From a virus, in IMG/VR virus record IMGVR_UViG_3300017751_000045, positions 1-42,430 of that record: a stretch of 42,430 bases of DNA; one strand, written 5' to 3'. A program made the position numbers and the translations under genes. Below are positions 1-34,388 of this stretch, in pieces. Numbering within the stretch: position 1 is the first letter of the stretch; every line of letters starts with the position of its first letter. The notes below the pieces were generated by a model. It saw nothing but the letters and a program-made list of their open reading frames with translations. It ran no database searches and was not told where the DNA came from.

Positions 1-960
1 CATATCGACTGCGGGCAAAGAATAACTTGAAGCCATTTCTTCTTCAAGTCTTTGAATCTCTTCTCGTGCATCGCTTAAAATTTGTTCTCCATTGAACTGA
101 ACGCCACCGGGCAATGTCATGCCGTTGAACTTGGTAAGATTTGAACCCCACTGATATTTGATTTTTGCTGTTGCATAGTTTTGTAAGAAACGATCTTTCC
201 ACAAGTCTGGATATGTAGTACCATCAACGACCTGATACGCTTCGATTACAACGTGATTACCTACAGTCAAATCAGCTAAGTTAGTATCTAGGAATAATTT
301 GTTCGTGTGTCTATTATATCTAAGCGGAACTGGTCCAACAAGAAGGTCTTCCATAAGACTTAGGTGCGCCATTGACATATAGAAGTGAGTTATGTTATAA
401 TGCAACATATCGTGTAGATTATGTAAGACAAATTGATACTTTGCGTTAAAGATTCCAGAACCAAGAGATGCATTAGACTCTGGTGTAAATAGATTCACAG
501 CGCCTATGATATTATCTGGAATCTCGATATAACCAAGTTCAAAGATTCCTTTTGTAACACCTAAGTTCGCTGAAGATTCAATTGTTGCTGTTGTGGTAGA
601 GTCTTCTCCAGTTATAGCTTCACTAGGCAGAAATTCTGTATCAGTGGTTGGCTTTCTATATGTAATCTCTGCGCCAGATGTCGCTAGAATTACTGCTTTA
701 GCCCCACCTGCACCTGTAATCACTTCACCCACAGTGAAGTTTTCTGCTGTACTTGTAGTTAGTTTGAGTATTGAATTAGATACTTTGTGCTTAAAATAAG
801 TCTTTTCTACGCCATCAAAGTGGTAGTCGTTATAATACGACAATGCTTCATCAACACGGTCATCAATTTGATCTGGGTCAACATTGATTTCTATAACTGG
901 TTTGCCCAGTTTTCTGAGACAAAACTCTTTGAACTCTGCTTTAGTTGTTGGCTGTGCCAT
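1..960 (-). CDS. gp13: Neck / head-completion protein gp13-like (3' end beyond window)
   Basis: Probable gp13, the neck protein that in T4 closes the filled head and helps form the site for tail joining. The frame is open from an ATG at 960 to base 1, giving 320 residues with no stop, so the C-terminus lies outside the window. The N-terminus carries LGKPVIEINVDPDQIDDR and DEALSYYNDYHFDG (about residues 18-50), which fit the gp13 pattern (T4 gp13 has a similar LG.PII..ELTPDQI and LYGEYHFDG stretch, from memory). Residues about 70-130 contain two related segments, FTVGEVITG and FLPSEAITG, that look like an inserted beta module; the family-like sequence resumes at about residue 133. A Shine-Dalgarno-like AGGAT precedes the ATG, and a perfect late-promoter box TATAAATA lies at 998-991. 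In T4, gp13 also follows the baseplate and fibre genes. The family is likely but rests on motif memory. Confidence 0.8.
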   Translation of the reverse strand, partial: MAQPTTKAEFKEFCLRKLGKPVIEINVDPDQIDDRVDEALSYYNDYHFDGVEKTYFKHKVSNSILKLTTSTAENFTVGEVITGAGGAKAVILATSGAEITYRKPTTDTEFLPSEAITGEDSTTTATIESSANLGVTKGIFELGYIEIPDNIIGAVNLFTPESNASLGSGIFNAKYQFVLHNLHDMLHYNITHFYMSMAHLSLMEDLLVGPVPLRYNRHTNKLFLDTNLADLTVGNHVVIEAYQVVDGTTYPDLWKDRFLQNYATAKIKYQWGSNLTKFNGMTLPGGVQFNGEQILSDAREEIQRLEEEMASSYSLPAVDM

Positions 961-990
961 GTTTATATCCTAAATTTTATTGATATTATA

Positions 991-998
991 TATTTATA
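991..998 (-). promoter_or_regulatory. T4-type late promoter for gp13
   Basis: The minus strand reads TATAAATA, an exact match to the T4 late -10 box recognised by the phage sigma factor gp55. It lies in the 47-base gap between the 121-residue gene and gp13, with its last base 30 bases before the gp13 ATG. No -35 element is needed for this promoter class. The box is exact; its use is inferred. Confidence 0.75.
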
Positions 999-1007
999 AC
1001 GATAAAG

Positions 1008-1373
1008 TTATCTAGTTACTCCACCAGTAACAGTAACTGTACCCTGAACGACACGAGTTACAGTATTGTTACCAGACACTATCTCAACGTCATAAAGATA
1101 TCTGCCGGGTTCTATAGAATTTGTTCCAACCTGAGTTACTGTAGTTCCGTCAACAACATCCGAATTGGGTAGTGACAAAGTAATGACACCGCCTTCACTA
1201 TTATGAGTAGTGATAAACTGTGCAGTAACTGTCGCTGTTGCATAATTTTTACGCATCTGACCCCTAGTGGTGTATCCACCAAGATTGAATGGTTGATCAC
1301 TAGAGTCTAGAACATCAACTGTTGCTGAAAAATCTGAACCCTGATCGATTGTTAAGTTTGCTTTAATTGCCAT
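1008..1373 (-). CDS. Small beta-sandwich virion protein (BppU-like)
   Basis: A 121-residue protein of unknown exact role, probably a small virion component. It is rich in beta-branched residues, has no signal peptide or membrane segment, and reads as one immunoglobulin-like or BppU-N-like beta-sandwich: an N-terminal strand MAIKANLTIDQGSDF, a central GGYTTRGQMRK, and the closing strands EPGRYLYDVEI and VVQGTVTVTGGVTR. I recall similar short proteins as common in marine T4-like phages near the neck and fibre genes. The start is supported by GGAGA nine bases before the ATG and by a late-promoter box at 1408-1401. It lies between the oppositely oriented fibre-like gene and gp13. The fold assignment is by pattern only. 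Confidence 0.75.
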   Translation of the reverse strand: MAIKANLTIDQGSDFSATVDVLDSSDQPFNLGGYTTRGQMRKNYATATVTAQFITTHNSEGGVITLSLPNSDVVDGTTVTQVGTNSIEPGRYLYDVEIVSGNNTVTRVVQGTVTVTGGVTR

Positions 1374-1398
1374 GAATTTGTCTCCAATAGATACTACA

Positions 1399-1414
1399 GT
1401 TATTTATAAATAAC
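1399..1414. promoter_or_regulatory. Palindromic divergent pair of late promoters
   Basis: The sequence gttatttataaataac is a perfect 16-base palindrome. It contains the exact T4 late box TATAAATA on the plus strand (1405-1412) and on the minus strand (1408-1401), with four shared bases. The plus box ends 35 bases before the ATG at 1448. The minus box ends 27 bases before the ATG at 1373. Because the boxes overlap, two polymerases could not occupy both at once. The 74-base gap holds nothing else recognisable apart from the two ribosome-binding regions. Confidence 0.75.
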
Positions 1415-1447
1415 AGAATAACCCTATTTGAACTAATTGGAAAAAAC

Positions 1448-4400
1448 ATGGCTAACAGAAGATATATAAAATTTGGTCTTAGAGCAGATAAAAATCTAAT
1501 CGATCTCGGTAATACCGCAGAAGCAGTAGATAATCTAATAGACGGCTTGGCTGTAGGCTCAGACATTTTTGGAAATCCATATCGATTCACTTCTGTAGAT
1601 TTAGCACCATTAAGAACTCTTTCATCAACAGACTTAGGTGCAATTCTTAATCCGACAGATAACTTACCACAAATTCTAAGAAATTTGAGTGGTTCTGTAA
1701 AAACAATCTCTTCAGCAGAATTAGATTCAGACCTTATCGATGTTGTTGGTCAGTTGGTAGTACAGCCACAAGTAACGCTTCAAGACAGAATAAACAGGTT
1801 TAAATCTGTTCTAGGTGATCCACCATTCATCAGCGGTGGCTCAGGACCTTATGTTGAATATGTACACCCGATTAGACTAACACAATTCACTGGTGCTTAT
1901 GATGATCTATTAATCAACATTAAGCCTTTCACACAAGCGAGTGATATTGCTAACGGAACAGATCAAACTGAAAATAGAGATTTAGTTATAGGCGACACAT
2001 ATAAAATAGTCAATCTTGGCGACATTACTAACGATGAGTGGAATGATATAGCGGACACTACTAGTGTAACCTATGGCGTAGGCGATGTTTTCGTTTGCGT
2101 AAACAACGCCTCAACTCAAGTTGGGCACGACACAACAGCGATTGTTAGAGATGTGACAACTCCGTCAGGTAACTTTGCTACTTCTATATCTGGTCAAAAA
2201 GCAGACACGCTTCCCGCAAAATTCTTATTTACTAAAACCTCTGCTAGTAATTATCCACCATCAGTTATTTCTGAAAACGACTGGGAAAACGGAAATTTTG
2301 AATGGGACGGTCCTATCAATAGAACATTCATAGCACAGGGTGGGTTGGTTCAGTTTAATGCATTTCAGGTTGGTGGATTCAACCCACAGATCGAAACAAA
2401 CGGCCTACTTTTAGTTGAAGAAAATGTGACTGAACAAAGTGACGGTTGGAGATTAGTAAAAGGTACAAATACCTATAACTTTAAGCCAGTATACAGCACT
2501 ACTGTTGCGACAGTAAATGAAAGAACTGTAATCACTTTCTCCAATAAAGACGACTGGAGAAGGGTCGCCAGATATATGAGTTGCACCATAAATGGACAAG
2601 GAGATACAGTAATCTCCGAATCTAGTGCAGGAACAATTTCTCTTGGAAGTGATCTTCAGATAACTGACTCTAATGCTGATATAGAATTTTCTTATAATGA
2701 AAGTGCTGTTGTAGAGTTTAATTCGTTTGACTTCACTAGACCCCCAGGAGATACTCGAAGACAGGTAAGATATAGCGTTTGGTGGCCTAGTGGATATGGA
2801 GAGAACTACTCCAAAATCTTTAGGGACTCTGGAGATAGTGGATCAGATCCTTTCAATAAACTAAACTTTTACAAAGAACAAAGAGATTTACTTTTCTATA
2901 GTAGAAAATTTAGCTTTCCATATTTTAGGGATAATAGAATATATGAGTTAAATCAAACAGGCAACACAAAAGTAGAAGTGCAACACACTTTCTTAAATAG
3001 ATATCTAAATCCACAGGTTCCGACTAATCTTTCTATATTAGAAAGCCCAAACATTTTTCCAAGAAGTACAGGTAGTGGAGCAACTGTAGAATCAATTCCT
3101 GTAAAAGTATCTGACGATGGCACAATAGAATCAAGCATCGAAGTATTTCAGGATTTTGAAGTTGGTGATTGGGTGGTATCATCAAGAAATGATGGAACAC
3201 AAAGATATTACGCATATCAAATAATTGAAAAGATTGGCGAAGATGATGAGATATCGGGAGATAGTACTAAGACAAAAGCGTATGTATCTCCGCAATATTT
3301 ACAGCAAACAGGCATAGCCGCTGATACTTTACATCATGTTCTTTTAGCAAAGAATCAAGGATTAATTGCTATCTACAATTCGTTTCAGGGCACAGATGCT
3401 GATGCAAATAGTGTAAAGAAAATCAAAATACTAGACTATACTTCTTTAGATTCTCCATCTAGACCCTATAGTATCAGAGCAGAAGATATTATATACAAAG
3501 TAGATTTTGTCCCAGCAAATCCATCAAACACTTTGGCTGATGCAGTGGTTTCAAATAATACTCACAGATATGGTATGAAACTCACCGAAATAGACCATAA
3601 TGACTCTGCTACACCAGTAGAAGCTATATTTGATGTAGAGTCCAATCCTAGTGACTCTTCAGGGTATACATTATCTACTAATCAGGGTGTGGCTTTTGCT
3701 TATGCATCAAGAGGATTGATAGACAGATCAACCCTTCAAGAGTGCGTAGATGTTTACGGTAAAGAAGTTACGAATAATGTTACTGGTACAACTGCAATAG
3801 AACTCAACAACGTAACAGGTATTACTCCAAGAAGTTCTGCAACTGCAATAACAAATGTGGTTATAGGTACAGATGGTAATATATCATTTGATCAAATGGA
3901 TATGAAGCATGGAGATCATATTGTAGTTTCTGGTACACCAACTGGTACAGGCGATATTACTGGATATACAAACTCTACGACATATCTTGTTGACGAAATA
4001 GTCACAGGTAATTCGCCAAATATTAGCGCAATTAAATTATCTGAACTTAACGGAGATGTATTAGTAACAACTAGTGGAGACTCTGCCGGGTTAACATTTA
4101 ACTTACATACTACTGGAGACTTTGCGTTTTTTGAGGGAAAAATTCCATATAACATCGATAATATGGTTCAAGTAGGTACAGTAAATAGTGGGAACAACAC
4201 GATAACATTGGTTGACTATAATGGTACAGCAGTATCTTTAAGTGGAACTTTAGGAGCAGGTGGCACTGTCGTATTTGCGCCTGCAGATGCAGGACCTGAT
4301 GCTAATGGATGGGATAAGCTGAATAAAGAATACTGCATCATTCCTTTGAATACTGCGCCGCCTTGGGAAGGTACTACTCTAGGCCTAAGAAGTCCAGTTG

Positions 4401-4555
4401 GAGATGTTACCAATAAACCTTTGAGCGTTCAGGCAAAAGAACTTAGATTTGTCAAACTATCTTTCACTGTTCCTACAGTTAATGTAGAATCTTATGTCGA
4501 AGATGCTAGTAACAGAACACAATTCATGAAGGTGAAGTATACTCCACCAACTTAA
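1448..4555 (+). CDS. Large virion / fibre-like protein on opposite strand
   Basis: A 1035-residue protein I do not recognise as a named T4 protein; probably a tail or fibre component. It is the only gene here on the plus strand. The N-terminus (MANRRYIKFGLRADKNLIDL) is followed by a helical stretch to about residue 150. A copy of the recurrent Y-I-G-W module is at about residues 182-218 (GDTYKIVNLG ... DEWNDIA ... GVGDVFVCV). A region like the second recurrent module is at about 820-880 (HGDHIVVSG ... TTYLVDEI ... AIKLSE). A charged, aromatic block around residues 440-500 (RYSVWWPSGYGENY ... FYKEQRDLLFY) has no match I know. There is no signal peptide or membrane segment. The two shared modules tie it to the minus-strand tail genes. 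It has its own late promoter at 1405-1412 and a weak GGAAA before the ATG. Its TAA is immediately followed by the stop of the convergent gene. Confidence 0.8.
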   Translation: MANRRYIKFGLRADKNLIDLGNTAEAVDNLIDGLAVGSDIFGNPYRFTSVDLAPLRTLSSTDLGAILNPTDNLPQILRNLSGSVKTISSAELDSDLIDVVGQLVVQPQVTLQDRINRFKSVLGDPPFISGGSGPYVEYVHPIRLTQFTGAYDDLLINIKPFTQASDIANGTDQTENRDLVIGDTYKIVNLGDITNDEWNDIADTTSVTYGVGDVFVCVNNASTQVGHDTTAIVRDVTTPSGNFATSISGQKADTLPAKFLFTKTSASNYPPSVISENDWENGNFEWDGPINRTFIAQGGLVQFNAFQVGGFNPQIETNGLLLVEENVTEQSDGWRLVKGTNTYNFKPVYSTTVATVNERTVITFSNKDDWRRVARYMSCTINGQGDTVISESSAGTISLGSDLQITDSNADIEFSYNESAVVEFNSFDFTRPPGDTRRQVRYSVWWPSGYGENYSKIFRDSGDSGSDPFNKLNFYKEQRDLLFYSRKFSFPYFRDNRIYELNQTGNTKVEVQHTFLNRYLNPQVPTNLSILESPNIFPRSTGSGATVESIPVKVSDDGTIESSIEVFQDFEVGDWVVSSRNDGTQRYYAYQIIEKIGEDDEISGDSTKTKAYVSPQYLQQTGIAADTLHHVLLAKNQGLIAIYNSFQGTDADANSVKKIKILDYTSLDSPSRPYSIRAEDIIYKVDFVPANPSNTLADAVVSNNTHRYGMKLTEIDHNDSATPVEAIFDVESNPSDSSGYTLSTNQGVAFAYASRGLIDRSTLQECVDVYGKEVTNNVTGTTAIELNNVTGITPRSSATAITNVVIGTDGNISFDQMDMKHGDHIVVSGTPTGTGDITGYTNSTTYLVDEIVTGNSPNISAIKLSELNGDVLVTTSGDSAGLTFNLHTTGDFAFFEGKIPYNIDNMVQVGTVNSGNNTITLVDYNGTAVSLSGTLGAGGTVVFAPADAGPDANGWDKLNKEYCIIPLNTAPPWEGTTLGLRSPVGDVTNKPLSVQAKELRFVKLSFTVPTVNVESYVEDASNRTQFMKVKYTPPT

Positions 4556-6892
4556 TCACATCACGAGAACTTTATATATCCCGTCTCTTACATCTGCTTC
4601 GTCTGCATACGCAAGCAACTGATAAGATTCACCATTTACTGTTATGGGTATCATATGGGTAAAGTTGTTGGTTAGGAATTGAGCATTGTTTGTAACAATA
4701 TCTGCTCCATCTACAATGCTAGTCTGATAAAGATTCTGTAATCCATTTCCGTTTATGGAATCTTGATTAGCATTAGTAAATAAAAGTTTTGGTTCACCTA
4801 CAGCTTCGCCACCAGTACCACTCAATCCATTACCACTATGTGTTGCTCGGAAACTATCACCGACAAGATAGGATACTCCAGTTGTTCCAGATACGTCATT
4901 CCAGTCAGTATTGTTGTCTCCAACATCGGTAATAATGTAGCTTTCACTTACAACAAAGTTGCCCCAAGTAGTGACATCTTTTCTGTCGAAAATAAAGTCG
5001 CCCGCCTGAGCAGTATCAGAAGTTGTCTTTAGGGCAGGAACATTCAGTGTTCTACTTCCAGAAGTGCCAACTACACCAGGCTTATTAGTACCACCAAGCG
5101 TACCATCTAGCGTGTAGTTTGTTTCTACTGAGCCGGGAATATCAAGATTGTTAGATAGTGAGCCAGTGGCTTCTTCAACTTTCTGCCAAGGATTGTCTGT
5201 ACCAGTAAATGCTCTTTTTGCTTCACCATTAGCTGGGTTTCTAATATATAATCCAACACTATCTACAATTAGTGCTGTAGAGCCAGTATCTACACTACCA
5301 CCTGCTGTTGTTGCTTTGAACACTATATGTTTCACTATAGCGTTAGATAGTGAGCCACCATGAGTCTGAGCAGTAAAGTAGGTACCTCTTACTACAGGAA
5401 TACCTTGCGATCTTGCAACATATGTAACACCAGTTGAACCTACTATTGCATTCCAATTGGCTTGAGGATTAGTATCAAGTCTATATTCTCCAACTTGATT
5501 TGACACACTCATGGCCATGTCTACTTGATCTTGATCTACATCACTAGAATTTTTAGACAGCTTTATCTGAGTACTGTTTACCACTTTAACATAGTATATT
5601 GTTTCTACCATGTCTCCTGTAACGCCATTGTCTCCTATACTTTCACCACTAATTCTAGTATAGAACACTTCGTCACTATCAGAAAGACCATGTGGACTGT
5701 CAAATGTTATCGTGTCATTTACGTCATCGACATCATCAAATGAAAATGATAAAACTCCTTCAACACCAATACCAGTTCTGTATCCCAAATTTATTATTTC
5801 ATATACTTCTCCTGGTATAATATTTCCACCAGTAATTTCTGGAGATTCATACTTTGTTATAGAACCTACACTCTCCCAAGAAGAAGTTCCAAGTTTTACA
5901 ACTTTATATATCTCACCTGCAACAAGGTCTCCGAAATTAGTTTCAACGCCGATCTTTCTGACTTTACCTGCGGCGTTTTGATTGTTTACTACTCTAACTC
6001 CACCGTCAAATCTTACACCAGAGTCTAATTTAAATATATTAGGAGAGTATCCGACAATCACATTAGACTTCTTAACTTCGACACCTGAAATATTTTGATC
6101 AAGTATCGCTAGTTGCCCAACACCACCACTGGCGGGGTCAGTGTCCCAAGGGTCGGGAGAGATTAGGACTATAGTCTCTTCATTAATTTCGCTGAAGCCA
6201 CCGAATAGCTGATCTTGTTGCCCCAATGACTCAACGTGAGCATTTTTTAAGTTTTCTATGGTAATTGTATCATCTCTGGTCAACGTAAGTGTGTCAACAT
6301 TACCCGGAGTATTCCCATTAGCACTTGTGGCAAAGTTAAAAGCTGGTCCTGTTGGGTCGGAAATAGGCGCAAGTTGAAATCTAGATACTGCATCACTATT
6401 TACTACGATGTAATCATAATTTGATCCACCATCAATAGACAGTAGTGTACCTTCAGTAAATGCGATTCTAGCTATTCTAGGTCTTACTACTAATGTCCAA
6501 CCATCTAATGAATCAAATACTGCATCAAATTCTCTTTTTGGGGATATCTCTATTGCAAGTCCACCACTACCTGTCGAAATATCTCCCTCACCTGTAGCAG
6601 TAAAGATTTCATTTACGTCACCAGTACTTGCACCTATAGAAGTCCAACCTCTATCGCTTCCAGAGTCAAATATTTTATAATTTTTATCTTGCTCGAAACT
6701 TCCGAACTGAACAAGCTGTCCTTCAGCAAAAGGATCATTAATGAGCCTAGACCTGTGCTGGGTATTTCCACTAAAAAGTTGTAAATCGCCAGAGACTCCC
6801 CCATCTTGCACGAGATTCGTTAAGATTAGCCTATCTGAATCTGGTGATGCGCTTTCTCTTAAATTTAAACTTGTTACGAAACCTTGAGCCAT
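4556..6892 (-). CDS. Module-rich tail / decoration protein
   Basis: A 778-residue protein built largely from short recurrent beta modules; probably a virion surface component, exact role unknown. Copies of the Y-I-G-W module are at about residues 65-100 (NYKIFDSG ... GWTSIG), 324-347 (EIYKVVKLGTSSWESVG), 359-514 (EVYEIINLG ... NWNAIVG ... RGTYFTA) and 646-697 (SYIITDVGDNNTDWNDVSG ... VGDSFRA). The third copy is split by a complete second module (PHGLSDSDEVFYTRISG ... TIYYVKVVNSTQIKLS). The N-terminus MAQGFVTSLNLRESASPDSDRL may be the attachment part. AGAGGA precedes the ATG at 6892; another ATG five bases upstream is out of frame. It is the last gene of the minus-strand series before the plus-strand gene, and the two stop codons abut. 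Confidence 0.8.
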   Translation of the reverse strand: MAQGFVTSLNLRESASPDSDRLILTNLVQDGGVSGDLQLFSGNTQHRSRLINDPFAEGQLVQFGSFEQDKNYKIFDSGSDRGWTSIGASTGDVNEIFTATGEGDISTGSGGLAIEISPKREFDAVFDSLDGWTLVVRPRIARIAFTEGTLLSIDGGSNYDYIVVNSDAVSRFQLAPISDPTGPAFNFATSANGNTPGNVDTLTLTRDDTITIENLKNAHVESLGQQDQLFGGFSEINEETIVLISPDPWDTDPASGGVGQLAILDQNISGVEVKKSNVIVGYSPNIFKLDSGVRFDGGVRVVNNQNAAGKVRKIGVETNFGDLVAGEIYKVVKLGTSSWESVGSITKYESPEITGGNIIPGEVYEIINLGYRTGIGVEGVLSFSFDDVDDVNDTITFDSPHGLSDSDEVFYTRISGESIGDNGVTGDMVETIYYVKVVNSTQIKLSKNSSDVDQDQVDMAMSVSNQVGEYRLDTNPQANWNAIVGSTGVTYVARSQGIPVVRGTYFTAQTHGGSLSNAIVKHIVFKATTAGGSVDTGSTALIVDSVGLYIRNPANGEAKRAFTGTDNPWQKVEEATGSLSNNLDIPGSVETNYTLDGTLGGTNKPGVVGTSGSRTLNVPALKTTSDTAQAGDFIFDRKDVTTWGNFVVSESYIITDVGDNNTDWNDVSGTTGVSYLVGDSFRATHSGNGLSGTGGEAVGEPKLLFTNANQDSINGNGLQNLYQTSIVDGADIVTNNAQFLTNNFTHMIPITVNGESYQLLAYADEADVRDGIYKVLVM

Positions 6893-6904: not shown

Positions 6905-9900
6905 TTACGGCAATTGATCTAATTGGAATGACCAACCACGTTGGACAAGAACAGTATACTTATCATTAATCGCCGAATTACCGGCTTGTTGAAGCCACGA
7001 TAGATTAAGTCTGTTTCCGCTATCTGGAGTCTGGTTATAAAGTCTGACAGTAATATTGCTATTACTACTTCTAGCATTTGAGTTTAAGTATAGATCATTA
7101 ATTATAGGACCTAAGTGGTAGTCATTTAATTTATTATCATTCATATAGAATTTCTTACAATATACAGCAGTAGACAAACTCCCACTTGTATAGCCATCAA
7201 ATAGATTATTATTAACTGTGTAAGACTCACATGAATTCACGCCACTGATATCAGGAAGAGGCCCGCTGAACTTATTATCTGTCACATTAAGTGTCGCAAA
7301 TTCATCACTACTTTGACTGAATACAGGAAAGTCACCTTCCATGTTAGTAATCCTAACACTAACATTTCTTAGTTTTTCCATATCCTTTATTTCATTATTG
7401 GTATCTGTGATAAATTCACTCAATCCTTGAGAAATCAACGGCTGCATACATCTATCTCTCACCACCTTACCAGTGCCGTAATCAACAGCAGGATCAGTAT
7501 TACCTGCAACCCCAGTTCTTTTCATTACGACTGTTCCATTATTAGTAGTTGTGAAACTACTGGTAGTACTGGTTGGATTGAATTCTTGTTTCCAATCGGT
7601 ATCGTCTACTCCGCTAATAGTAGAATCCATTCCCTGAATGACAGAAAGATTTGATGATGTACCACTTCTTATAAAGAGATAGTTGCCTCCGGCTACACAC
7701 CCTGTCAGAAAGATTCTATTTGCGGCAGAACTGGCTTTAAACGTGTCGCCCTTTGCTGGGTTATTTCCTGTTACATAATGACCCCACTCACTAGCCCCTC
7801 CATTTGGGATGTAGTTGGCTACCCAACCCATGGCTTCCCATTGTGCCTTTGTCGAGCCTGATGGGTCAACAATTACATACTCTTGATCGTGTATACAAGT
7901 GTTTATATCTGGGTCTTGATATTCGAACCAATCTTCTTCCTTTGGTTTTCCTGTGCTTCCGCCTGCAACCAAAGTACCTCTAGATGTATTATCTCCCCAA
8001 CTTACAAAATCAGAATTTACGTCAGAACCGCTCCACCCCATATCTTCATACTCTTGAAACGACATAGAATGGTTTCTCTTGGAAGAAATAAACCCAGTAG
8101 GTCTCCATCCCTGAATAAAATCTGATCTCGGAACAGCAATGTCCATATTTTCTGCCACCTGATAATTCTTACCAGGAGTAATTGACTGATTTGGATCGAC
8201 TAATCTCCGAAGACTACTTATCGTTACCTTTGACATTTTCTCGCACCCAGATAAATTGGGGAACCTACCATGCACATGACAACCACTTACGGTTATCGTG
8301 CAATCAGTACTCTGTGTACCAGTAGGATTAGGGTTCCATGTTTCAAATTTAAGAGCATTTATCGGTGGTTGTACGGTTTCGTTGATTAAGTATCCAGACC
8401 CCGCAGACCCAGTCAATATTACAACACATAGTCGAGGGTCTGATCCTGTTTGATCTGGTAAAATATTTCCCTGTCTTGCACTGGTGCTTCCATCAACTGC
8501 AAACTGATCATAATTAAGGGCCTCTCTATATAAATAAACTGAGCGAGAGGTGCCGGTGCTTTGGACATCATAGAAGTCGAACTTTCTTAGCTTAGAACAA
8601 TCTTTTAAAAAGTTGCCATCAAGAGTAAGTTGAGCATATGCGGCAGGACCGAAGTCTAATGTTTGTAACTCTGTCTGACCATGTAGTAAAGTGGTCGCAT
8701 CTCCCCACATAGTTTTATCTAGATCAGTTGATCTTCCATTGGCACTTGCGCTTGCATTATTACTAGATGACATATGTACAATCATAGTTTCAAGTTTAGT
8801 AGTAGTGTTTAGACCACCAAACATATTTTGCTGAGACAACTCCCTATCTTCAAGCCTATAACCAAAACCTATGCTAGTATTAGCCCCAAAACTAAGATAT
8901 TTTAAGTTGGGCATATCATGAATGTTAGGAACATGGGTTTTGCAACCACTCAAGCCCAATGATTCAAGATTCGCTTTATTTTCAAATTTGAACTTTCTAT
9001 CTTCATTACTGATGTCCATAGTAGTAGCGTTTGTAGTATCGACAAACCTATAATCAGCAACACAGTCTGTTCTGAATGATCTATTCGATGTCGAACCAGT
9101 AGGACCCCACTGAATTAGGTTAGTACTGTTTAAATATGCAACAGGAACGAATCTATAATCTACATAGTCTGGATTATAGATTTCAACGCCTCTACCTGCC
9201 TCGATGTGCAGTTTATTGTTAACATCATCCCACTTTTCAAATGTGTGAAAAGTGCCTGTATCAGCCGCTAATGTATATGATGATATAACATTACCTGCTC
9301 CATACGGGCTTTGTCTCAGTTTAATAGTATTCAAATCTACTACTTCAACCTGCAAAATATCATTTCTGCTAAGAGGAGATAGTTCTTCACACAAGGTTCC
9401 TGCAAGCATAGTACTGTCTTGACCACCAGTACCGACATTACCACCACCCATTACAAAATTTGGATTATCTGGTGCTACCCTATTTTTATATCGAACTTTG
9501 TCACCACTCACGAACCTGTGAGCAACAAGAGTAAATTCTCCTGTGCTTGGGTCTAAAACATTCGAGTCAGTTGGGTCAAATTTTAACTTATAATTAGGAT
9601 CATAAACGGCGGGTGCTACACCGTCACCACCAGTCTGTAAGTTAGTCGTTGACCCAGGGAATGAAGTCTCACCAAAGTCAAGATTAACCAAATCTGGAAA
9701 TCTTTCATAGCTTATATCGAGATTACCCGGCAAATCTTCCCAAGACCCTAGATCATTAATTGACTCCATTGAAAGTGGCAATCTCGCTAGTTGCTCGTTA
9801 GGTGTTCCTGTATATCCAGTGACAAACTGAAGTTCAGCAACTTCGGCGCTATTAGGCGCTAGGCCTAATTTGTTATTGGATAAATCAATGTGTTTGAGAT

Positions 9901-10936
9901 TAGGTGCAATAAAATTGAAGTTTGGAATATTCTCGAACTTATTGTTTGATATGTCTAAATCTTCTAAGCCAGTAAAAACAGTTTCGGCAAAAGAAGTCAG
10001 ATTATTATTTCTCAACCTCAATTTACTAATCAAAGAGGGGTTATAGAAAACATCCAAATATACATTACCACTGACACTCGCATTGTCTATACTGGCTTGA
10101 ACATGATATTCACTAGTTCCATTCGCACTCTTATTTGGTACAAACTCAGAAGTATTGTTGTTACTAATAGGGATAGTTGTTACACCATCCAGGTTAGTTT
10201 TCTCAAACTCAACTGGTATGTAGCCCAGAAAATCTTCAATAAGATCACCACCAGACTCGATTAGATGTGCATCAAATTCAAGAGTGGCTCCGCCTGCCGT
10301 AAATCTAAATGGTATACCTCTCATTACTGGAAACTGAACATCTGTTCCATTAATGTTTAATGTTAGTTTATCTGTAGGTACCTGAGATCGTTTTGCTTTT
10401 TGCTGAGGTTGTGTTGTTAATGCTAATTCTGTGAGAGCAAGAAATTCGCCACTATTAATAACTTCTGAGTTATATGTGATAAGTTGATCTGGATTGTCTT
10501 CAGGTCCGAAAGGAGACCAAGAAGATACTCTAGATGTAGAGATGTCAGCACTTTTCAGATTCCATTGCGAATTACCACTACCGTCATTTCCATCAAAATT
10601 TACATAGTTGTACTTTATTGTACCTGCTATAAGTTTGCTGTTTATTGCAAAGTTGTATCTTTGATCATTAGCAACACTTCTTATGTTGTCACTTATTTCA
10701 CCTGCGGCAACAGAAGAGGCCTCTAAAGAATCTAGAACTCTTTTTTGATCGTCAACAAGACCGGATATGTTATGAAACTCTTGAGTCGTTATTAGCCCAC
10801 CTAAACCTTTTATTAAGTTTAAGTTATCCCTTCTCAGACCCAAGTTGCTTAGTGCGATATCTCGATCACTTATATCGCTTAGAGACTTAGCTACATTCAA
10901 GCCCCTATAAACATTATCACCAAAAGCGTTAGCCAT
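6905..10936 (-). CDS. Leucine-rich-repeat virion protein
   Basis: A 1343-residue protein with several blocks of leucine-rich-repeat-like sequence, probably a tail-attached binding protein. Residues 1-60 are helical, then a mixed region follows. Clear LRRs are at about 300-350 (LRLRNNNLTSF, LEDLDISNNKFENIP, LKHIDLSNNKLGL). Weaker repeats lie at about 648-790 (LESLGLSGC, LKYLSFGANT, LQTLDFGPA, LRKFDFYD), 875-912 and 1182-1290 (FATLNVTDNKFSGPLPDISG, FYMNDNKLNDY). A Y-I-G-W module lies at about 1015-1073 (EYVIVDPSG ... QWEAMGW ... KGDTFKA). A segment like the second module is at about 470-560 (HRFVSGDKVRY ... VVDLNTIKLRQ). It ends in TVLVQRGWSF. The ATG overlaps the upstream stop as TAATG and is preceded by AAGGAG. 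LRRs commonly bind proteins or glycans; a receptor role here is inference. Confidence 0.85.
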   Translation of the reverse strand: MANAFGDNVYRGLNVAKSLSDISDRDIALSNLGLRRDNLNLIKGLGGLITTQEFHNISGLVDDQKRVLDSLEASSVAAGEISDNIRSVANDQRYNFAINSKLIAGTIKYNYVNFDGNDGSGNSQWNLKSADISTSRVSSWSPFGPEDNPDQLITYNSEVINSGEFLALTELALTTQPQQKAKRSQVPTDKLTLNINGTDVQFPVMRGIPFRFTAGGATLEFDAHLIESGGDLIEDFLGYIPVEFEKTNLDGVTTIPISNNNTSEFVPNKSANGTSEYHVQASIDNASVSGNVYLDVFYNPSLISKLRLRNNNLTSFAETVFTGLEDLDISNNKFENIPNFNFIAPNLKHIDLSNNKLGLAPNSAEVAELQFVTGYTGTPNEQLARLPLSMESINDLGSWEDLPGNLDISYERFPDLVNLDFGETSFPGSTTNLQTGGDGVAPAVYDPNYKLKFDPTDSNVLDPSTGEFTLVAHRFVSGDKVRYKNRVAPDNPNFVMGGGNVGTGGQDSTMLAGTLCEELSPLSRNDILQVEVVDLNTIKLRQSPYGAGNVISSYTLAADTGTFHTFEKWDDVNNKLHIEAGRGVEIYNPDYVDYRFVPVAYLNSTNLIQWGPTGSTSNRSFRTDCVADYRFVDTTNATTMDISNEDRKFKFENKANLESLGLSGCKTHVPNIHDMPNLKYLSFGANTSIGFGYRLEDRELSQQNMFGGLNTTTKLETMIVHMSSSNNASASANGRSTDLDKTMWGDATTLLHGQTELQTLDFGPAAYAQLTLDGNFLKDCSKLRKFDFYDVQSTGTSRSVYLYREALNYDQFAVDGSTSARQGNILPDQTGSDPRLCVVILTGSAGSGYLINETVQPPINALKFETWNPNPTGTQSTDCTITVSGCHVHGRFPNLSGCEKMSKVTISSLRRLVDPNQSITPGKNYQVAENMDIAVPRSDFIQGWRPTGFISSKRNHSMSFQEYEDMGWSGSDVNSDFVSWGDNTSRGTLVAGGSTGKPKEEDWFEYQDPDINTCIHDQEYVIVDPSGSTKAQWEAMGWVANYIPNGGASEWGHYVTGNNPAKGDTFKASSAANRIFLTGCVAGGNYLFIRSGTSSNLSVIQGMDSTISGVDDTDWKQEFNPTSTTSSFTTTNNGTVVMKRTGVAGNTDPAVDYGTGKVVRDRCMQPLISQGLSEFITDTNNEIKDMEKLRNVSVRITNMEGDFPVFSQSSDEFATLNVTDNKFSGPLPDISGVNSCESYTVNNNLFDGYTSGSLSTAVYCKKFYMNDNKLNDYHLGPIINDLYLNSNARSSNSNITVRLYNQTPDSGNRLNLSWLQQAGNSAINDKYTVLVQRGWSFQLDQLP

Positions 10937-13900
10937 TATTGCTCCTTACTAGTAACAGATAGTTGCATACTTCCAATACTACCATCCAAAGACGATGCGG
11001 TTAAGTATACTGCCCTATTATTTAGCGAACCTCTGGTAATACCTTTTCTATCCCTAGAAAATATATTTTCTAAATCAACAGTAACGGTTTCGTTTTCTCC
11101 CACATAGCAAGAGTATAATTCTACTCCCGGTCTAAGTGGGTTAGAATTAGTAATATCATATCTGGAAGAAGCCATATCAGCATTATCATTGAAAGCAGAA
11201 GAACTATTAAGAGAGTTTGATCCACCACTATTAGCAATAGAGACATTCGGGTTTAATGAACTGGATTCTATTACGAACTCTGGTGTATGAGTTCTAACGA
11301 CCCCTTGCTCAAGTATCTCTTCTACTACTACACCATTAACATGAGCATAGTCACCTAAAGCAAAAACTGGATATAGTGGTTGGGCATCATTAAATGAAAC
11401 AGCCCTAGAGACTGTAAATCTTTGATCGTCAAACAATCGTCTACCGCTAGAGTCTACAGCGAAAGGCTTCCAGTCGTCTGTAATTGTAATGGTTTTTGAC
11501 TGTATGTTTCTATTTTCAGGGGTCATATTAGCTATTTGAGACTGAAAAGTTGGGTCGTAGTCTATGAGTATAGCGGCAACTATTCTTACTTCTGCATCAC
11601 TGCCTTGGTTCAATACTTCTTGATCTTCTGCGGCATACTCTATCAAATCAGACCTGTAAACTAGTGACCTTCCCACGAATTGAAATCCAACTTCAGAGAT
11701 GCCTGGCTCAATAACCCCTGCGGGTGGTGGACTATTAGATGGGTCACTACTGAATTTAACCACACTAACTTGACGACCATCAACTATAACCGGTCCTGTT
11801 ACTGAATCATACCTATAATCATTTACAGTGACTTCGCAAGATACAGTAGAGGCTATACCTCTATCAGAACCCTGTATTCTATTCTCTCTTCTATCTAATC
11901 TGGGATCTATTTGTAATCTGTTTCCATAAAGAGTGTCATTTTCTTTGATCTCAAGTTTCTTATTTTGATCATAGTCTCGTGTTGCATGAGAGTACTCTAT
12001 AGACGGAAACCGAGTTCTATCATATTCTACGCAATCATAACTGCTACTCGCACCAACTTTAAATAGAACCTCGTGATCATCGACTTTATTCGCAGGTCTA
12101 TTGGTAGCATCTCCAGTTTCTGTTGGCAAATACGGTGTCACGCCAACAGAGAACTCTCCAAAATGCTTGTACCAAAGATCGCTATCATTACCAGAAACGT
12201 CATAGTCTAAGCCTTTGTCCTTTATCTGTGGATTCAGAAAATGTATCTTGAATTTATTTGCATACACTGGAGTCTTTGATGCGACAACTGTTCTGTAACT
12301 ATTTAATCTTGCTAGGAACGATTCAGGTGCTGTTCCGGCTAGTTGAGTATAGCTGAATACCGATTCGTCAACTTTCTCAGAGTTTGTTGCTGTTCTTGGT
12401 ATTATAGAATACTCGGGCTTGGAGTAATCGGGGTCGTCCCCTCTTCCATACAAATCGCCTAGATTTTCTAGAGTATCGACATATGATCCATAAACCCCAT
12501 CTGCTATTATGTGAGCCATATGATCACTAGGTTGGAATCTGTAGACTAGAGTCGCCTCGTAACTATTAGTAACGCCAGAAAATGGAGTCTCTAAAACCAG
12601 ACCGTCAGTATCACTAGAACTGACATAAACTACTGTACTTCCATTTTTAAATGACTTAATTACATACTCGTTTCCACCTATACTTAAACTATCTCCTACT
12701 TGAAGTCCTTTATAGTTATTACCAAAGCCAGCGGTACTTGATTGTGGATGAGTAATTGAATCAGAACCATTGGTCGCAGTTACACCAAACTTTAGTGCTG
12801 TTGGTGCTATTGGATTGCCTTGATAGTCATCGAACCGAATTAACTGTCTCGAATTTGTGGCTGATACCATATTTACGCCATTAGCTACACTGGAATCAGA
12901 TTCGTCTAGTCTATAACTCAGTGCCACTGTTCTATTTTTCGGATGCACTCCATCCATATGAATAGATGGAGAGTAGTGAAAATGAACGCCCTGAGATGTA
13001 CCCGCAATCTCTTCGAATGTTAATTTAGCCGCAGTGTCAGAAGAAACAGAAAGACTTGATGGATAAATCTTTTTAAAGTTTAGTTTAGGTACGCCCTTAC
13101 TATTTTTCAGCACTTCTTTGGGCATAATACCAATCATAGATGTTCGTGATTGAAATGGTTTTTGTGGTGATGATTCAGAATTTAGTCTAATAGTTCCCTC
13201 GTCACCACCATCAATATAGCAACTACTACCAAACTTATAAAGATATATTGGTTGCTTAATATCTTCTGTAAAGTTGGTGTATAGTAAATATTTAAATCTA
13301 AAATCTGGATTCTCTAGAACCGGTTGACCAAGACCATTCTCAATGACAAATGTGTGCATAAGCACCCATCGACAATCTCCATTACCAACAGGAATATATG
13401 CGTAAAACTTTGCTCCAATAGCACCATACCAAGAGAACTCGATCTTGTACATCGTAACATCTTCAAATGACAATGCGTATCTAGTATCACCAGTTCCGTC
13501 TAATGGGTCGCCAGTAAAGTCAGTTCTTTCTATAATGGTTTCCCATATTTCTCTCGTTTCTTCACTTTTGATCCCAGGCATATACGATTTTGTTTGCTTG
13601 AGTGGAGATATCCCTTGTCGCTGAAGTAGTTCATCGGGCATCTTAATGGTACTTCTTCGTACCAAACTGAGTCTTTCGCCTTGAAGTTGGAACATATATT
13701 CATCAGTGTCATTTGAGCAACCCCACTCAGCAATCGCTCCTTGACCACCTGCAATCATTCTCGAACCAAATGTGAAACCACTTGCTCGACCTGGCTGATA
13801 TCTAAATGTTCTTTTACTTTGAAGGATTCCATAATATTCATCACCAGTGTAATTTTCATCAGTATCTTTACCTGGTAATGCTTCTTTTGTTTGAATCATA

Positions 13901-17800: not shown

Positions 17801-19524
17801 GTAGCAGAATCAGCACTACTAGTACCAAAGTTAGGCTGGGTGTAGACTATGTTTTCATAAATCTCTGCACTCGCACCAGTAACGCTTAAAGGTGAATTGT
17901 TACCGCTGAATACTCTACCCACATAAGGATCACTAATTGATAGAGAGTTCCAAGTGTTACTCATACTAGTACCGACACTTTTGATAGTATACTTTTTATC
18001 ACTAGAAAGAACCATGCCGTTTGCCAATGCAACAGGGGCTTTTTTAGTGGTTACGAAGTAAGACCAGAAGTTTCTTTTAACTTCAAAGAATGTTTCCAAC
18101 TTATCTTTAGTTCCGTAATCAATGGCATAAAAAGTAACGCCAGAGACTGCCGAAGGTACTGCTGTGGAATTAACATTAGCGGGTACAAAGGTATCTGAAT
18201 AATTTGAGGCAGAAGCATCATCAGAGTTACCAAATGAATTTGCGACTATTGTTTGCAAAGCAACCAATCTATCTTTTGCCGAAGTGCTTAGACCATCAGT
18301 AGTATGAATACTCGTGAAGTAATCTAATAATGCCTTATGGACAGGTGCTTCAAATATACTAATTTTTGGGAATACTCCAACATTATGCAAAGGGGTTTCC
18401 CATTCGTTTCCAACCTGCGAATCTGCCAAGGCAAAGTTTGTGGTATTCCATGCAGTGTGTGCATTACCACCAAACTCTAAATCTAGTAAGAAGTTATCTA
18501 TCCAGTAGTCTAGATCACGTTTACATTTTGCTTCCATCTTTGCGGCATCTAATAGGTTTGGATATCCAACAGACTGATTGAATGCTGTTGCCAAATCGGC
18601 ATAATAAGATGTGTTAGTTGCTAGAATAGATGCACTAGTAGTACCAGAAGTCCAACCCTTTTTAATACCAGTCAATGTCTGTGGAGTACTTAACAAAGCA
18701 CTACAGTGTGCGGCATGATTTCCAACAACACCTGCTAGTACACTATCAACAATTTCAAATCTTTTTTCAGTAAGTATTTTTCTATCTGTTTCTAATACGC
18801 CTGTATAATCTTCTGACTCACTTTTACCATAACCAACAATTCTATAGTCATCTAACTGAGTGTTAGATAGCTTGGTCGGAGTAGCAGATGCTGTGTTGGA
18901 TTCACCTCTTAATTTAGTCTGCTGACTAATACCATATGGACTAACAGCACCATACTGTAATGACTGTGTTCTTCTTACCACAGAGAAGTTATCTTCCTTA
19001 CCACTGTTTCTAGTTTCCCAGTAGTAACCATCATACTTATCGTAAATGCCGTACTTACGAATAACTGGATTTTGAGCAAAGTCTGCAATAGACACAGAAC
19101 TCTTAATACCAAACGTAGCCGCAGATACACGACCAGGTTGATATCTGAAGAAACGCTTAGAGGTCAGTACTGCTGTTTTATTTCGAGATGCTTCCACAAG
19201 CGCACCGGCTTCAGTTGGAAGATGCGCTACACCATCGCCCGAAATATGATATGCAGGTTTCATTGACCACTCTGATGGGTTAACATCATAAGTGTTTACA
19301 TCAGCGAAGATACCGAGTGCAATCTCTGCTCTGGGTATACCCAGAAGCGATAGAGCAACTTCAGACTGAATCTTATTCTGTTCGACAACAGGGATAGAAG
19401 TCTGGTCTGATGCCATTACGACAGGAATAGACTTAGATGCAGGTTGTGCGCCAGGAGAAACTGGAGTCGTTCTGCCTACATTTACTACTGCTGAATTTAT
19501 GTTAGAATTTGTTATACTTGACAT
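14872..19524 (-). CDS. Giant virion protein A, paralogue of the following gene
   Basis: A 1550-residue structural protein of unassigned role. It shares with the 1310-residue neighbour the blocks SIPVVEQNKIQSEV and SLLGIPRAE with FADVNTY (about residues 45-80), KRFFRYQPGRVSAATFG (about 118), FSWYGAVGALFLAYIPVGNG (about 1102) and KYGASYYIDGGDRGTVRL (about 1185). Nearly 1000 residues lie between the second and third blocks, against about 120 in the neighbour. This insert holds two copies of an RD-x-x-Y-x-I-D ... GGN element (about 333-360, KCKRDLDYWIDNF; and 598-625, KCQRDVGYIIDGY), a Y-I-G-W module at about 506-555, and an EF-hand-like loop DFNGDGTATLSE at 643-654. AGGAAA precedes the ATG. It is very probably tail-associated, since it lies between a beta-helix fibre gene and its own paralogue. 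Confidence 0.82.
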   Translation of the reverse strand: MSSITNSNINSAVVNVGRTTPVSPGAQPASKSIPVVMASDQTSIPVVEQNKIQSEVALSLLGIPRAEIALGIFADVNTYDVNPSEWSMKPAYHISGDGVAHLPTEAGALVEASRNKTAVLTSKRFFRYQPGRVSAATFGIKSSVSIADFAQNPVIRKYGIYDKYDGYYWETRNSGKEDNFSVVRRTQSLQYGAVSPYGISQQTKLRGESNTASATPTKLSNTQLDDYRIVGYGKSESEDYTGVLETDRKILTEKRFEIVDSVLAGVVGNHAAHCSALLSTPQTLTGIKKGWTSGTTSASILATNTSYYADLATAFNQSVGYPNLLDAAKMEAKCKRDLDYWIDNFLLDLEFGGNAHTAWNTTNFALADSQVGNEWETPLHNVGVFPKISIFEAPVHKALLDYFTSIHTTDGLSTSAKDRLVALQTIVANSFGNSDDASASNYSDTFVPANVNSTAVPSAVSGVTFYAIDYGTKDKLETFFEVKRNFWSYFVTTKKAPVALANGMVLSSDKKYTIKSVGTSMSNTWNSLSISDPYVGRVFSGNNSPLSVTGASAEIYENIVYTQPNFGTSSADSATQLFQFRNLGAAGDDRIKQLIADKCQRDVGYIIDGYKNDILGGGNAETTYNASMFTRGTGLSVYSQKEDFNGDGTATLSEIKRHEYLKTLMSRELKAFDSADNGVQTNYESVHGGSGDGGSFNELSELIVTNFNNENTNTLINGSKPFPGNLVVLRDGLIHTHAAIYDPSLLKDAEKIKAVATGGVQTTNVANQVGTVFKLTKGNVTFGQHVKIHWTGDSPSITIVDNGATTEEIYNGEVLRVRRVIGPKGNEFTLQKANKVVNQDNNYEYQLVSIEQADIDDASGTGTFFFETVVPFIFPKDYDLDTINPGQGSLANVVHVSEIDTTYATLTNDASDSGDQGDQRQFRTFGTEFNTGATPVGAMFPYMYSVTDDLLDANMGTGTINQNVGDYVGFINTSLDPNASDGGLNIDRIRSQIDNVNFYPEYVNWVKNNVKPEYWGVYEYRIPRSRFSHDALDGIKSNAAAKSAGNPGARKRVYSDIVTGLNSAGTNTIVRPGQNFFETLGIAEFQNSEYDFDFTKVTMLKVEFSWYGAVGALFLAYIPVGNGEARWVRVHHLRASNQLKIASLGNATLPITYTTYGGGSAYCLGDGEDVPAVAVEQGYGSTSHHIVKYGASYYIDGGDRGTVRLYSHNNDSVIDALGKQFPSTSVNTTTQESFTGSGSSLYYITVDGSTYQDAEFFMGASIKTGNLSDTNIKVVWIDGSKLYLSSQIQGAAADIKIIPDRATTIYGIETKKTILSTREQNAVRNRVQVYPTKLSSANIGSNPVRLIFKKTPLFQTDVTPTGSFELNTEYTVDNTNTPLTVTAGSANYLANGQETYGWFRARISAEFLTVFGRLYKDTDQYYFELLESYEGAVVLASGGSFLADKKFLASGVEATSSDTKFSYEKEGLSSVKIATNPVVPIPNTGINVATTYLRAGTEQFDLATYFDYNKEYLSFPLTDIADTLYFAVDSDTNIAASGDGISLGVTWEEQ
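17563..17598 (-). other. EF-hand-like calcium-binding loop in giant protein A
   Basis: The twelve residues DFNGDGTATLSE have Asp, Asn and Asp at positions 1, 3 and 5, Gly at 6 and Glu at 12, the pattern of an EF-hand loop. Position 8, usually hydrophobic, is Ala. Similar isolated loops occur in bacterial dockerin-like and phage adhesin domains. Calcium binding is inferred from pattern only. Confidence 0.5.
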
Positions 19525-28300: not shown

Positions 28301-31300
28301 AGTTATCAGAAACATTTACTGTACCTGCAGAATTTTCGTCAATCTTCAAGTCCACTGGGAACTGTCTCAACTTAGGAGTTGCTACAGTTCGTGTCTTGTT
28401 GATACTTGCACTAAATTGTGGATCACTAATGTCTGCGCCACCAAGGTCTTTAAATGAATCAGCCATGATACCGTTCTTAAATCTATCGACTCCATCAGGA
28501 CCGGTTATCAACATATTCTTAGCATCTTGTTCTGCCAAACTTAAAGTAACCAAACTGGTAAGATTATCTAGTTTAGTCTCTAACGTACTGATGTCACTCA
28601 TCTTATAATTTCTTTGAGTTGCACCCTTCAGCTTGATTCCATCCTTACCAGTAATCTCAGTTGTACTACTAGGAACAATGATATCTGCAAGTTTGTATTC
28701 TTTACCGACAGGTGGCGCAACTGGAGATTCTGATTCAACTCCAGTGACTATGCTCATATTACCATACTCATCTAGAACAACAGTGTCTAATCTTGCTAAA
28801 AAGTAAGATTGTTTGCTGTTGATGGTAAAGCCATTCGCAAAATCTGCGTATCTAACGATGCCTGGTGGATGATCTATGCCTATCTGTCCCAAGTATGCTT
28901 GTGCAGAATCTGTTAAGTCTATACCCGCATTAACTTCCTTAACTTCACTAAGCAAGTTGCTAACACTCTCAATCTTCGTTTTGGCATAGGGTCTTAAATC
29001 GAAACAATTTAATACATTATACGATCTAACATTTTTAGCAGTATATCTACCAATTAAAGCCTTGTCTTCATCAGTAACACTAGAGTAACTGTTCGCAACC
29101 AAGTATCCACCAGAATAAGTTCTGTTCAGATATTTAATTTCAACGATCAAGTCATTTACTGTTAACTGAGACTGTCCCTGCTTTAACTGAATATAAGATA
29201 GATCATAAAAGGTATCTTTTTGGTTATTAACTAATCTAAATTTTTTGGTTACATCTTCTAGAGTACCATTACCATCGTCAGTAAGAATCCTCAATACTTT
29301 GATGACATTTGGAACACCCAAATCTGCTGTTCTAGAAGCAGTTGAGTATGTCGTTTTAATGTATCCAACAGTTGGTGTTAATGTATCTGGAGAAACATCC
29401 ATATATCTTTTGTTATAATAGATATAATCAAATGTTTGTGTTGCCGAAACTCCAGTACTAGCACCAAACTCTACAGATATTCCATCACTTCTACCAACTA
29501 AGTTTGAATCAGGCAACTGATCTATCGATGTTGGTTTAACAATTCTTTGTTTTGCGGGAGTACCAGTTGTAGTGATACCAACAACATCAGTAGACCTCTG
29601 AGGAACGTGTGGGTTGGCGTTAGACCCAGTGGTGGGTATGTTTGTTGTACGAGCAACAGCACCATCAGCACCCAACTGTTTACCTTCTATTCTTTCTCTT
29701 CTAACGACATTAACAGATTCGATACTATCTAGACTTAGTTTACCAGTATCAAAAATCATAACGCCTTCAGATTGATTCTGTAGACCAAGATAGCGTTTAT
29801 TACCAATCGCATCAGTATCAGTAACGTACTTTAATGGTAAGCAACCAGTTGCAACTGAAGCGCCTTGTACATAATCAGGTGGAGCAATATGCGATGGTGA
29901 AACTGCTTCCATACCATCTTTCTTTTTAATATTGAATGCAAATACTTTACCATCACCAATATTGTTAATATTACAAGTTCCGATTATTTGATTATTATCA
30001 GGACTTGCAGTTTGACCAACAAGTTTATACTGAGCCAGTACATTACTTACTCCACCAGATATATCAAAAGCTACTGTTGTAGGCCAGTCACCTGCTTCTG
30101 CTTGACTATCACTACTTAAATCAAACAAATAGTGTTGATCATACTGAACTGTAGTAAGTTCATTCTTCTTTACTTGTTTTGCAGTTAGTGGTGGAATTTC
30201 GATTTTCTTAGTCTGTATGTTTCTAACTTCTTTACCGAATATATACGCTTTACCTGGGCTAATCGAAACTTTGGGTATAGCATTGTCGTTTTCTAATGAA
30301 GCATTGTATCCACTAAGAACATAGTGACCAGATTCATCGTAAGTTCTTCTAGCTAGTTCTTCTCCCAAAATATTAAGTTCTGTTCTATCACGAAGCCTAA
30401 TAGTTTTACCATCAACATATCTTATTAGTGCAAAGAAGTCTGTTGGCTCTGACGAAGTAGTGTAAGAAGCTAATGTAGGAATAAGTTGTAATCTATCAGC
30501 ACCGGGTGCTTGATAATTATTGAATCCATTAGCGTTATCTAGTAGAGTGTTGTCTAAGTTCGAGTTGACTATATTTTCTTGAATATCAAAACCAACTGAA
30601 ACTGGATTTATTTTATTTACGTCTTCTGGGTCTAGACCATCTTGACCAGGTATATTGCTATATCTAGTTACAATGATAAGTTGTCTCTCAACATAAATGA
30701 AGTGACCTCTTTGGAAAATAACTCCTTCTTCACAAGAGATACCGTATGATTTACCTACTTGATTTTGAGAATCAGATGCTGTGGTAAAAGAAATGGCATC
30801 ACCATTTGCATCAGCAACTGGTGCTAAGTCACGGTCTAATAGTTCAATGAGTTCGCCAGGACCAAACTGCTTTACGTCTCTAGTTCCATCGTTTGTGGTG
30901 TTCAAGTATGTAATATAAAAAGTTTTAAGGTTTGGAGCAGATGTCTCAAAGCCAGGAAGACCCTTAACAACTTCTGCAAGCAAACCAGAATCCTGTCCTC
31001 TTAAAACAAATCTTGTAGCAGAGCCGTCATCGCCAATAACTTCATTATATAGCGCAGGATTGGTGAACCCAGGTTGATCCTTTACCTTAACAAAGAAAAG
31101 ATCGTCACGAGTGGTAAGGTTGACACCACTAATGATAGTGCCTTCTTTATATACATTTGACCCAAATCTTTCTACTTGTTTTTGTAGAATAGTTTGAAGC
31201 TGAGTTAACTCTCTTGCTTGTACAGCTTTAGATGGCTTAAAGAGAATACGATTAAACTGCTTCTCTTCATTAAAGTCATCATAATACGGATCTACATTTA

Positions 31301-33407: not shown

Positions 33408-34388
33408 TTAATCTAAAGTGCGTTGCTCTTTAGTGAATTCTCCTATTATGTATGGGTAAGCAGGAGTTGTAAGATTGTTATCGCTAAATGTTAAAAAGTA
33501 TGCATATGTTCCACTCTGAAATTCTGGAGTTATACAATATCTTCCATTGAACACATCTAAGTCTGATCCTATAGACGAGTCATAAAAATAGTCTACAGTA
33601 TATGTACCTCTGGGAGCAGAAAAAGTATCCGGTCTTCCAACCACGTTTTCCAATATGTCTTCACTCTTTAGTGCATATCCACTAGACATAACCTTAACAC
33701 CACTATCATTGTCTGGTGCATTAGCATTTGTAAATCCATAGGGTCCATAGATTGGATGCCCATCAAGCGCCCAGCCAACTATCTTAGAATGACCCAATGG
33801 TAAACCATTTGATGATTCTACTCCATGTCGCATATAATCCGAACTAAAGCTACTATCATTAAAATAAGGACTAGATGTCTTAAATCTATTATTAGGAGAT
33901 AATGGTGTTCCGAACCCCTTAGTATAGAACGAACAACTTCTATACCTGTATTCGTTATTATCGCCTTCTGGTCTTCCGCCAGCTTGATCCAATGCGCTAT
34001 TATCAGGAAACACTGCATCCCATCGCAAACCAGTTGGAGAAGGGTTGCCGCTACTTGGACTATAGTTCACTCCAGGTGGATATATAGGAACACCATTTAC
34101 TGTGACTCCTATAGCCCCATCATCGCTATAAACGCTCTGTGGAGTTGCTGCCGCAATATTTCTCATTCCTGCTCTATATCTAAAATTAAAATTATGATCT
34201 TGGTCTTCTATTTGCTTGTCTCTAACCATAGCCGCATTAGGATCGTCTCCTATATCACGAGCAAACTTTCTTATCGAATTATCATTTACTGCTGTGTTAA
34301 CGCTGAGGGTATTACCCACTCTCACGACACCGCCAGCACTAGCCGGAAAGGGGTCACCATCTGATTTTACTTTTAAAATTTTAGACAT
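33408..34388 (-). CDS. YHYH-domain virion protein
   Basis: A 326-residue protein with a YHYH domain (Pfam family named for a conserved Tyr-His motif). Key stretches are GLPLGHSKIVGWALDGHP and PIYGPYGF at about residues 194-218, GTYTVDYFYD, and LDVFNGRYCITPEFQSGTYA with YFLTF near the C-terminus. The domain occurs in secreted and surface proteins of bacteria and in marine T4-like phages; its biochemical role is not established to my knowledge. The N-terminus (SKILKVKSDGDPFPASAGGV) is followed by a region around residues 40-75 suited to attachment. The ATG overlaps the upstream stop as TAATG, so it is translated together with the gp7-like and gp8 genes, which supports a baseplate location. Confidence 0.85.
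   Translation of the reverse strand: MSKILKVKSDGDPFPASAGGVVRVGNTLSVNTAVNDNSIRKFARDIGDDPNAAMVRDKQIEDQDHNFNFRYRAGMRNIAAATPQSVYSDDGAIGVTVNGVPIYPPGVNYSPSSGNPSPTGLRWDAVFPDNSALDQAGGRPEGDNNEYRYRSCSFYTKGFGTPLSPNNRFKTSSPYFNDSSFSSDYMRHGVESSNGLPLGHSKIVGWALDGHPIYGPYGFTNANAPDNDSGVKVMSSGYALKSEDILENVVGRPDTFSAPRGTYTVDYFYDSSIGSDLDVFNGRYCITPEFQSGTYAYFLTFSDNNLTTPAYPYIIGEFTKEQRTLD

Follow-up and report, generated by a model that had tools for sequence, protein, structure and literature searches.

The late promoters of phage T4 consist of an 8-base-pair (bp) box placed about one helical turn before the transcription start, with no -35 element (PMC2988020), and the box spans positions -13 to -6 (PMC1524935). The 42,430-base IMG/VR fragment IMGVR_UViG_3300017751_000045, the whole of which is referred to here as the window, carries at positions 1399-1414 a palindrome, GTTATTTATAAATAAC, that very probably represents two such late-gene start signals placed back to back and sharing bases. 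Compared with a single gp55-dependent promoter of the T4 type, with its box TATAAATA, the window element has the same 8-bp box at the same position before an open reading frame (ORF), but the box is doubled, lies on opposite strands and has bases in common with its partner.

The element is real but it is not of a new kind, and the strongest independent case is found in T4 itself. Between the divergent late genes 26 and 51 (GenBank M77695; NC_000866, 116450-116461) lies a 12-mer, TATTTATAAATA, identical to the core of the window palindrome and with the same 4-bp overlap, and in M77695 each of the two genes has a TATA box annotated at the 12-mer positions. The exact 12-mer is kept at this junction in 10 of 11 sampled T4-like genus-level groups; in the Krischvirus representative the box on the gene 26 side is changed. 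The T4 case differs from the present one in that the two genes are a baseplate hub pair, with shorter leaders (21 and 17 nucleotides, nt) and at another place in the genome. Bidirectional promoters of prokaryotes likewise use one symmetric -10 region for both strands (PMC12825309, PMC10268837), and in Escherichia coli those that share a -10 element preferentially start 18, 10 or 23 bp apart (PMC12825309). Among the open-licence papers on T4 late promoters and on bidirectional or overlapping promoters, a set that largely leaves out the older T4 work, no paper describing the present arrangement was identified.

The box pair and its link to gene orientation

The 16 bp are identical to their own reverse complement and contain one exact TATAAATA box on each strand. 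Positions 1405-1408 belong to both boxes, four of the eight bases thus being shared in a perfect dyad. The plus-strand box lies 35 nt before the ATG at 1448, which opens a large gene, and the minus-strand box 27 nt before the ATG at 1373, which opens a small gene running in the opposite direction; on these points the original prediction was confirmed on the window sequence. Neither a single box nor a 16-bp palindrome is remarkable alone, as five boxes were found against 4.96 expected, and three palindromes of at least 16 bp against 0.85 expected per shuffled window. The overlapped pair TATTTATAAATA is remarkable, with a mean of 0.01 per shuffled window and a presence in one of 100 shuffles. 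The two further perfect palindromes both lie within coding sequence, at 11055-11072 (18 bp, TAGAAAATATATTTTCTA) and 19330-19345 (16 bp, TCTGGGTATACCCAGA). No Rfam match to a known RNA element was obtained for window positions 900-1700.

Related viruses were identified from three starting points. The search with the neck gene, which lies beyond the small gene, gave 80 viral loci. In 586 kilobases (kb) of DNA that included the window, each of the 28 copies of the 12-mer lies at a divergent junction. Six contigs carry the 12-mer far from the neck gene, in every case between the same large and small genes; the core stays with this module even where the module lies elsewhere. The search with the small protein was independent of the first and offered a natural contrast between divergent and co-directional loci. 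Overlapping boxes are present in 24 of the 24 small-gene loci with an inverted large gene (21 with the 12-mer and three with TATTTATATAAATA, in which the overlap is 2 bp), whereas an opposing box is absent from all 53 loci in which the neighbour is co-directional. The same set also includes one locus whose divergent neighbour is merely a spurious short ORF, and two without a neighbour. In cultured Kyanoviridae relatives, where the small gene has co-directional neighbours, the 12-mer is absent. Contig G063, in which the small gene is co-directional, carries TATTTATAAATA at 29111-29122.

Regarding the large protein, its search returned 69 viral loci, and in 51 of these the divergent large gene is preceded by the 12-mer (47 by script, and four hidden by miscalled upstream starts). 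The remaining 18 comprise one locus that lacks a divergent neighbour, two genes without an N-terminus and 15 distant members, most of which have separated inverted boxes, for example TATTTATCAAAGCTGATAAATA. The original prediction had called for a check of whether the palindrome is kept in related genomes: the 12-bp core is, while the outer two base pairs on each side of the 16-mer are not. Scanned contigs with the overlapped form have the 12-mer exactly once, and contigs without the large gene usually have none, G063 being the one exception; in the contigs G031 and G032 (131 and 144 kb) no second pair of back-to-back boxes lies within 24 bases. The leaders are near-constant among close relatives of the window, with 26-28 nt to the small-gene ATG and 33-36 nt to the large-gene ATG.

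A promoter reading and its alternatives

Among 687 ORFs of the relatives, the starts of TATAAATA boxes peak at 31-50 nt before the ORF, with 115 boxes in this interval of two 10-nt bins, compared with 3-17 in any other bin. Homologues of gp55 were found in the palindrome-bearing relatives G014, G031 and G032. Together with the nearly perfect link to divergent layout and the T4 26/51 precedent, these results support the proposal that the palindrome is two overlapping divergent late promoters of the T4 type. We are largely confident that it acts as a bidirectional gp55-type late promoter, serving a lone inverted virion gene and restarting the operon on the other side.

A gp55-type promoter consists only of the 8-bp box, with no -35 element, so that two of them can have bases in common and form a palindrome. 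On the same DNA, late RNA polymerase would bind in either orientation and start near 1418 for the large gene or near 1395 for the small one; these positions, predicted from the box convention alone, are 23 bp apart, which is among the common spacings of prokaryotic bidirectional promoters. The large gene forms a lone inverted cistron, tail-to-tail within the late structural operon. It converges on its 3' neighbour in 50 of the 50 relatives with that neighbour resolved (gap of -12 to +14 nt), and a search for an intrinsic terminator between the converging genes gave nothing above shuffle level. Being inverted and convergent, the large gene should require its own promoter, with a restart needed for the genes on the other side; the palindrome would provide both, with the small protein first on the restarted side. 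Every initiation event would go in one direction only, because both complexes would occupy the same DNA, and on steric grounds mutual exclusion of two polymerases at the site is likely.

Some points weigh against this interpretation. The window contig, a 42-kb fragment, has no gp55, and all of the large-gene viruses found are uncultured. The loci are related, so that counts overstate independence; the 42 distinct junctions fall into 15 + 2 flank clusters at 75% identity. In addition, retention of the overlap may reflect lock-in rather than selection for overlap, as insertions or deletions in an overlapped pair would destroy a box.

The original prediction also saw in the overlap a built-in either/or choice between the large gene and the small one. 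On such a reading, competition between the promoters would fix how much large protein is made relative to small protein and neck-side expression. The two initiation complexes have to use the same DNA, the opposite direction is suppressed when a bidirectional promoter is strongly activated (PMC12825309), and late promoters activated by the clamp could be strong. However, competition in E. coli is confined to cases of strong activation in one direction, basal activity having been too low for it at five of five bidirectional promoters tested (PMC12825309). Distant relatives with the divergent layout have separated boxes, so strict overlap is not obligatory, and the neck gene has its own box and would therefore not be controlled by the palindrome promoter alone. 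As the measured E. coli cases compete only at high activity, a regulatory switch stands here as a hypothesis, one that we regard as unlikely, and the claim of a built-in choice found no support.

Alternatively, replication could set the direction. The symmetric core would then be unbiased, and the direction taken by the polymerase would depend on how the loaded gp45 clamp is oriented, as given by the strand nicked or primed. In T4 the nick-carrying strand sets the polarity of clamp activation (PMC2988020). At sigma-70 promoters the -35 elements can bias direction, whereas gp55 promoters lack them and depend on the sliding clamp, and a palindrome of this type would be a natural case in which the effect would show. 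Clamps of both orientations may nevertheless abound late in infection, and the bases flanking the core are asymmetric; we regard this proposal as unlikely, slightly more so than the switch. If true, fork or nick polarity would set the ratio of two structural proteins made from divergent late genes.

The perfect dyad symmetry could also denote the binding site of a dimeric repressor, or of another palindrome-recognising protein, instead of a promoter, and T4 DsbA has been reported at AT-rich sites overlapping two late promoters (PMC2988020). Against this, the half-site spacing varies (4-bp overlap, 2-bp overlap, 6-bp gap) with both boxes intact, and no opposing box occurs where the neighbour upstream runs in the same direction. 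Since some relatives have a 2-bp overlap or separated inverted boxes, what is conserved is two boxes and not one dimer-spaced site, and we consider a protein-binding site very improbable. A chance palindrome in AT-rich DNA, of which 0.85 of at least 16 bp would be expected per window, is refuted by conservation of the core across distant relatives with diverged flanks and proteins, and its probability is negligible. An invertible, phase-variable segment was also rejected, the 12-mer being single copy and no long inverted repeat flanking the large gene.

Surrounding genes, variant junctions and the large protein family

The window virus is marine and T4-like, with gp6-like and gp25-like baseplate genes, a phrog_438 baseplate wedge protein and a gp13-like neck gene. 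Many of its genes are very large and nearly all lie on the minus strand; the large gene at the palindrome is the only large one on the plus strand (Table 1).

Table 1. Coordinates of the palindrome, its boxes and the adjacent genes in the window (aa, amino acids).
Feature	Position	Strand	Remarks
Perfect palindrome, 16 bp	1399..1414	.	Outer 2 bp on each side not conserved in relatives
Conserved 12-bp core TATTTATAAATA, two overlapping late boxes	1401..1412	.	Exact in 51/69 large-gene loci
TATAAATA late box, large gene	1405..1412	+	Predicted start ~1418 by the T4 convention (PMC1524935)
TATAAATA late box, small gene	1401..1408	-	Predicted start ~1395 by the T4 convention (PMC1524935)
Large gene, 1035-aa virion-type protein	1448..4555	+	Lone inverted gene; tail-to-tail with the gene at 4556
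Small gene, 121 aa, phrog_1084 / phrog_3304 (L-shaped tail fiber protein assembly)	1008..1373	-	Predicted Ig-like beta-sandwich
Neck protein, gp13-like, phrog_211 head-tail adaptor Ad2	1..960	-	3' end beyond the window edge
Single separate TATAAATA box of the neck gene	991..998	-	
Convergent gene	4556..6892	-	Stop abuts the large-gene stop (4555/4556, 0-nt gap)

Elsewhere in the window, the minus-strand gene at 6905-10936 encodes a tail-region protein of 1343 aa in which leucine-rich repeats were recognised (LRR_4, above the Pfam cutoff), a feature that seems unusual for a phage structural gene, and a YHYH-domain protein is encoded within the baseplate gene cluster (33408-34388, minus strand).

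Two variants of the junction were observed. In one group (L003-L007, L059 and L062-L064; L003 4909-4926) the palindrome holds three overlapping boxes rather than two (TATAAATATTTATAAATA) and is flanked by the neck gene, which also has its own box, and by a different small gene; in loci of sufficient length the large gene is seen further down the same strand. In the distant members L247, L250-L253 and L258, and in contig G033 (29758-29779), inverted GATAAATA boxes are separated by a 6-bp gap (TATTTATCAAAGCTGATAAATA), and the small neighbour is a different one (MAVELVNIGRIANDGTGDDLREAF).

The large proteins of the relatives are only 22-32% identical to that of the window. As aligned with the window gene, the family ranges from about 750 to 1450 aa, with an N-terminus of the form xKYxKFGLRADKNLSDL and a conserved PLNTAPP motif; its genes are consistently inverted and tail-to-tail with the neighbour, often with overlapping stop codons. 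The large protein matched no Pfam or PHROG family, and its AlphaFold model, of low confidence (mean predicted local distance difference test score, pLDDT, 59.6), matched no PDB fold at E 0.001. The label "fibre-like" given to the large gene at first is thus without homology support. A DNA search with the junction gave no match among phage isolates, and a protein search with a large-gene relative, at the sensitivity used, found no cultured carrier of the gene among 50,697 phage records.

Significance for T4-like phages

The palindromic late promoter with shared bases recurs and is well conserved among T4-like phages, at no fewer than two unrelated gene pairs. The analysis also marks out an unnamed family of virion-type genes whose orientation within the late operon is consistently reversed. 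As a -35 element is lacking in gp55 promoters, the palindrome offers a clean natural case for asking what determines direction when a promoter is symmetric, a question that the 26/51 promoter of T4 makes testable now in a laboratory system.
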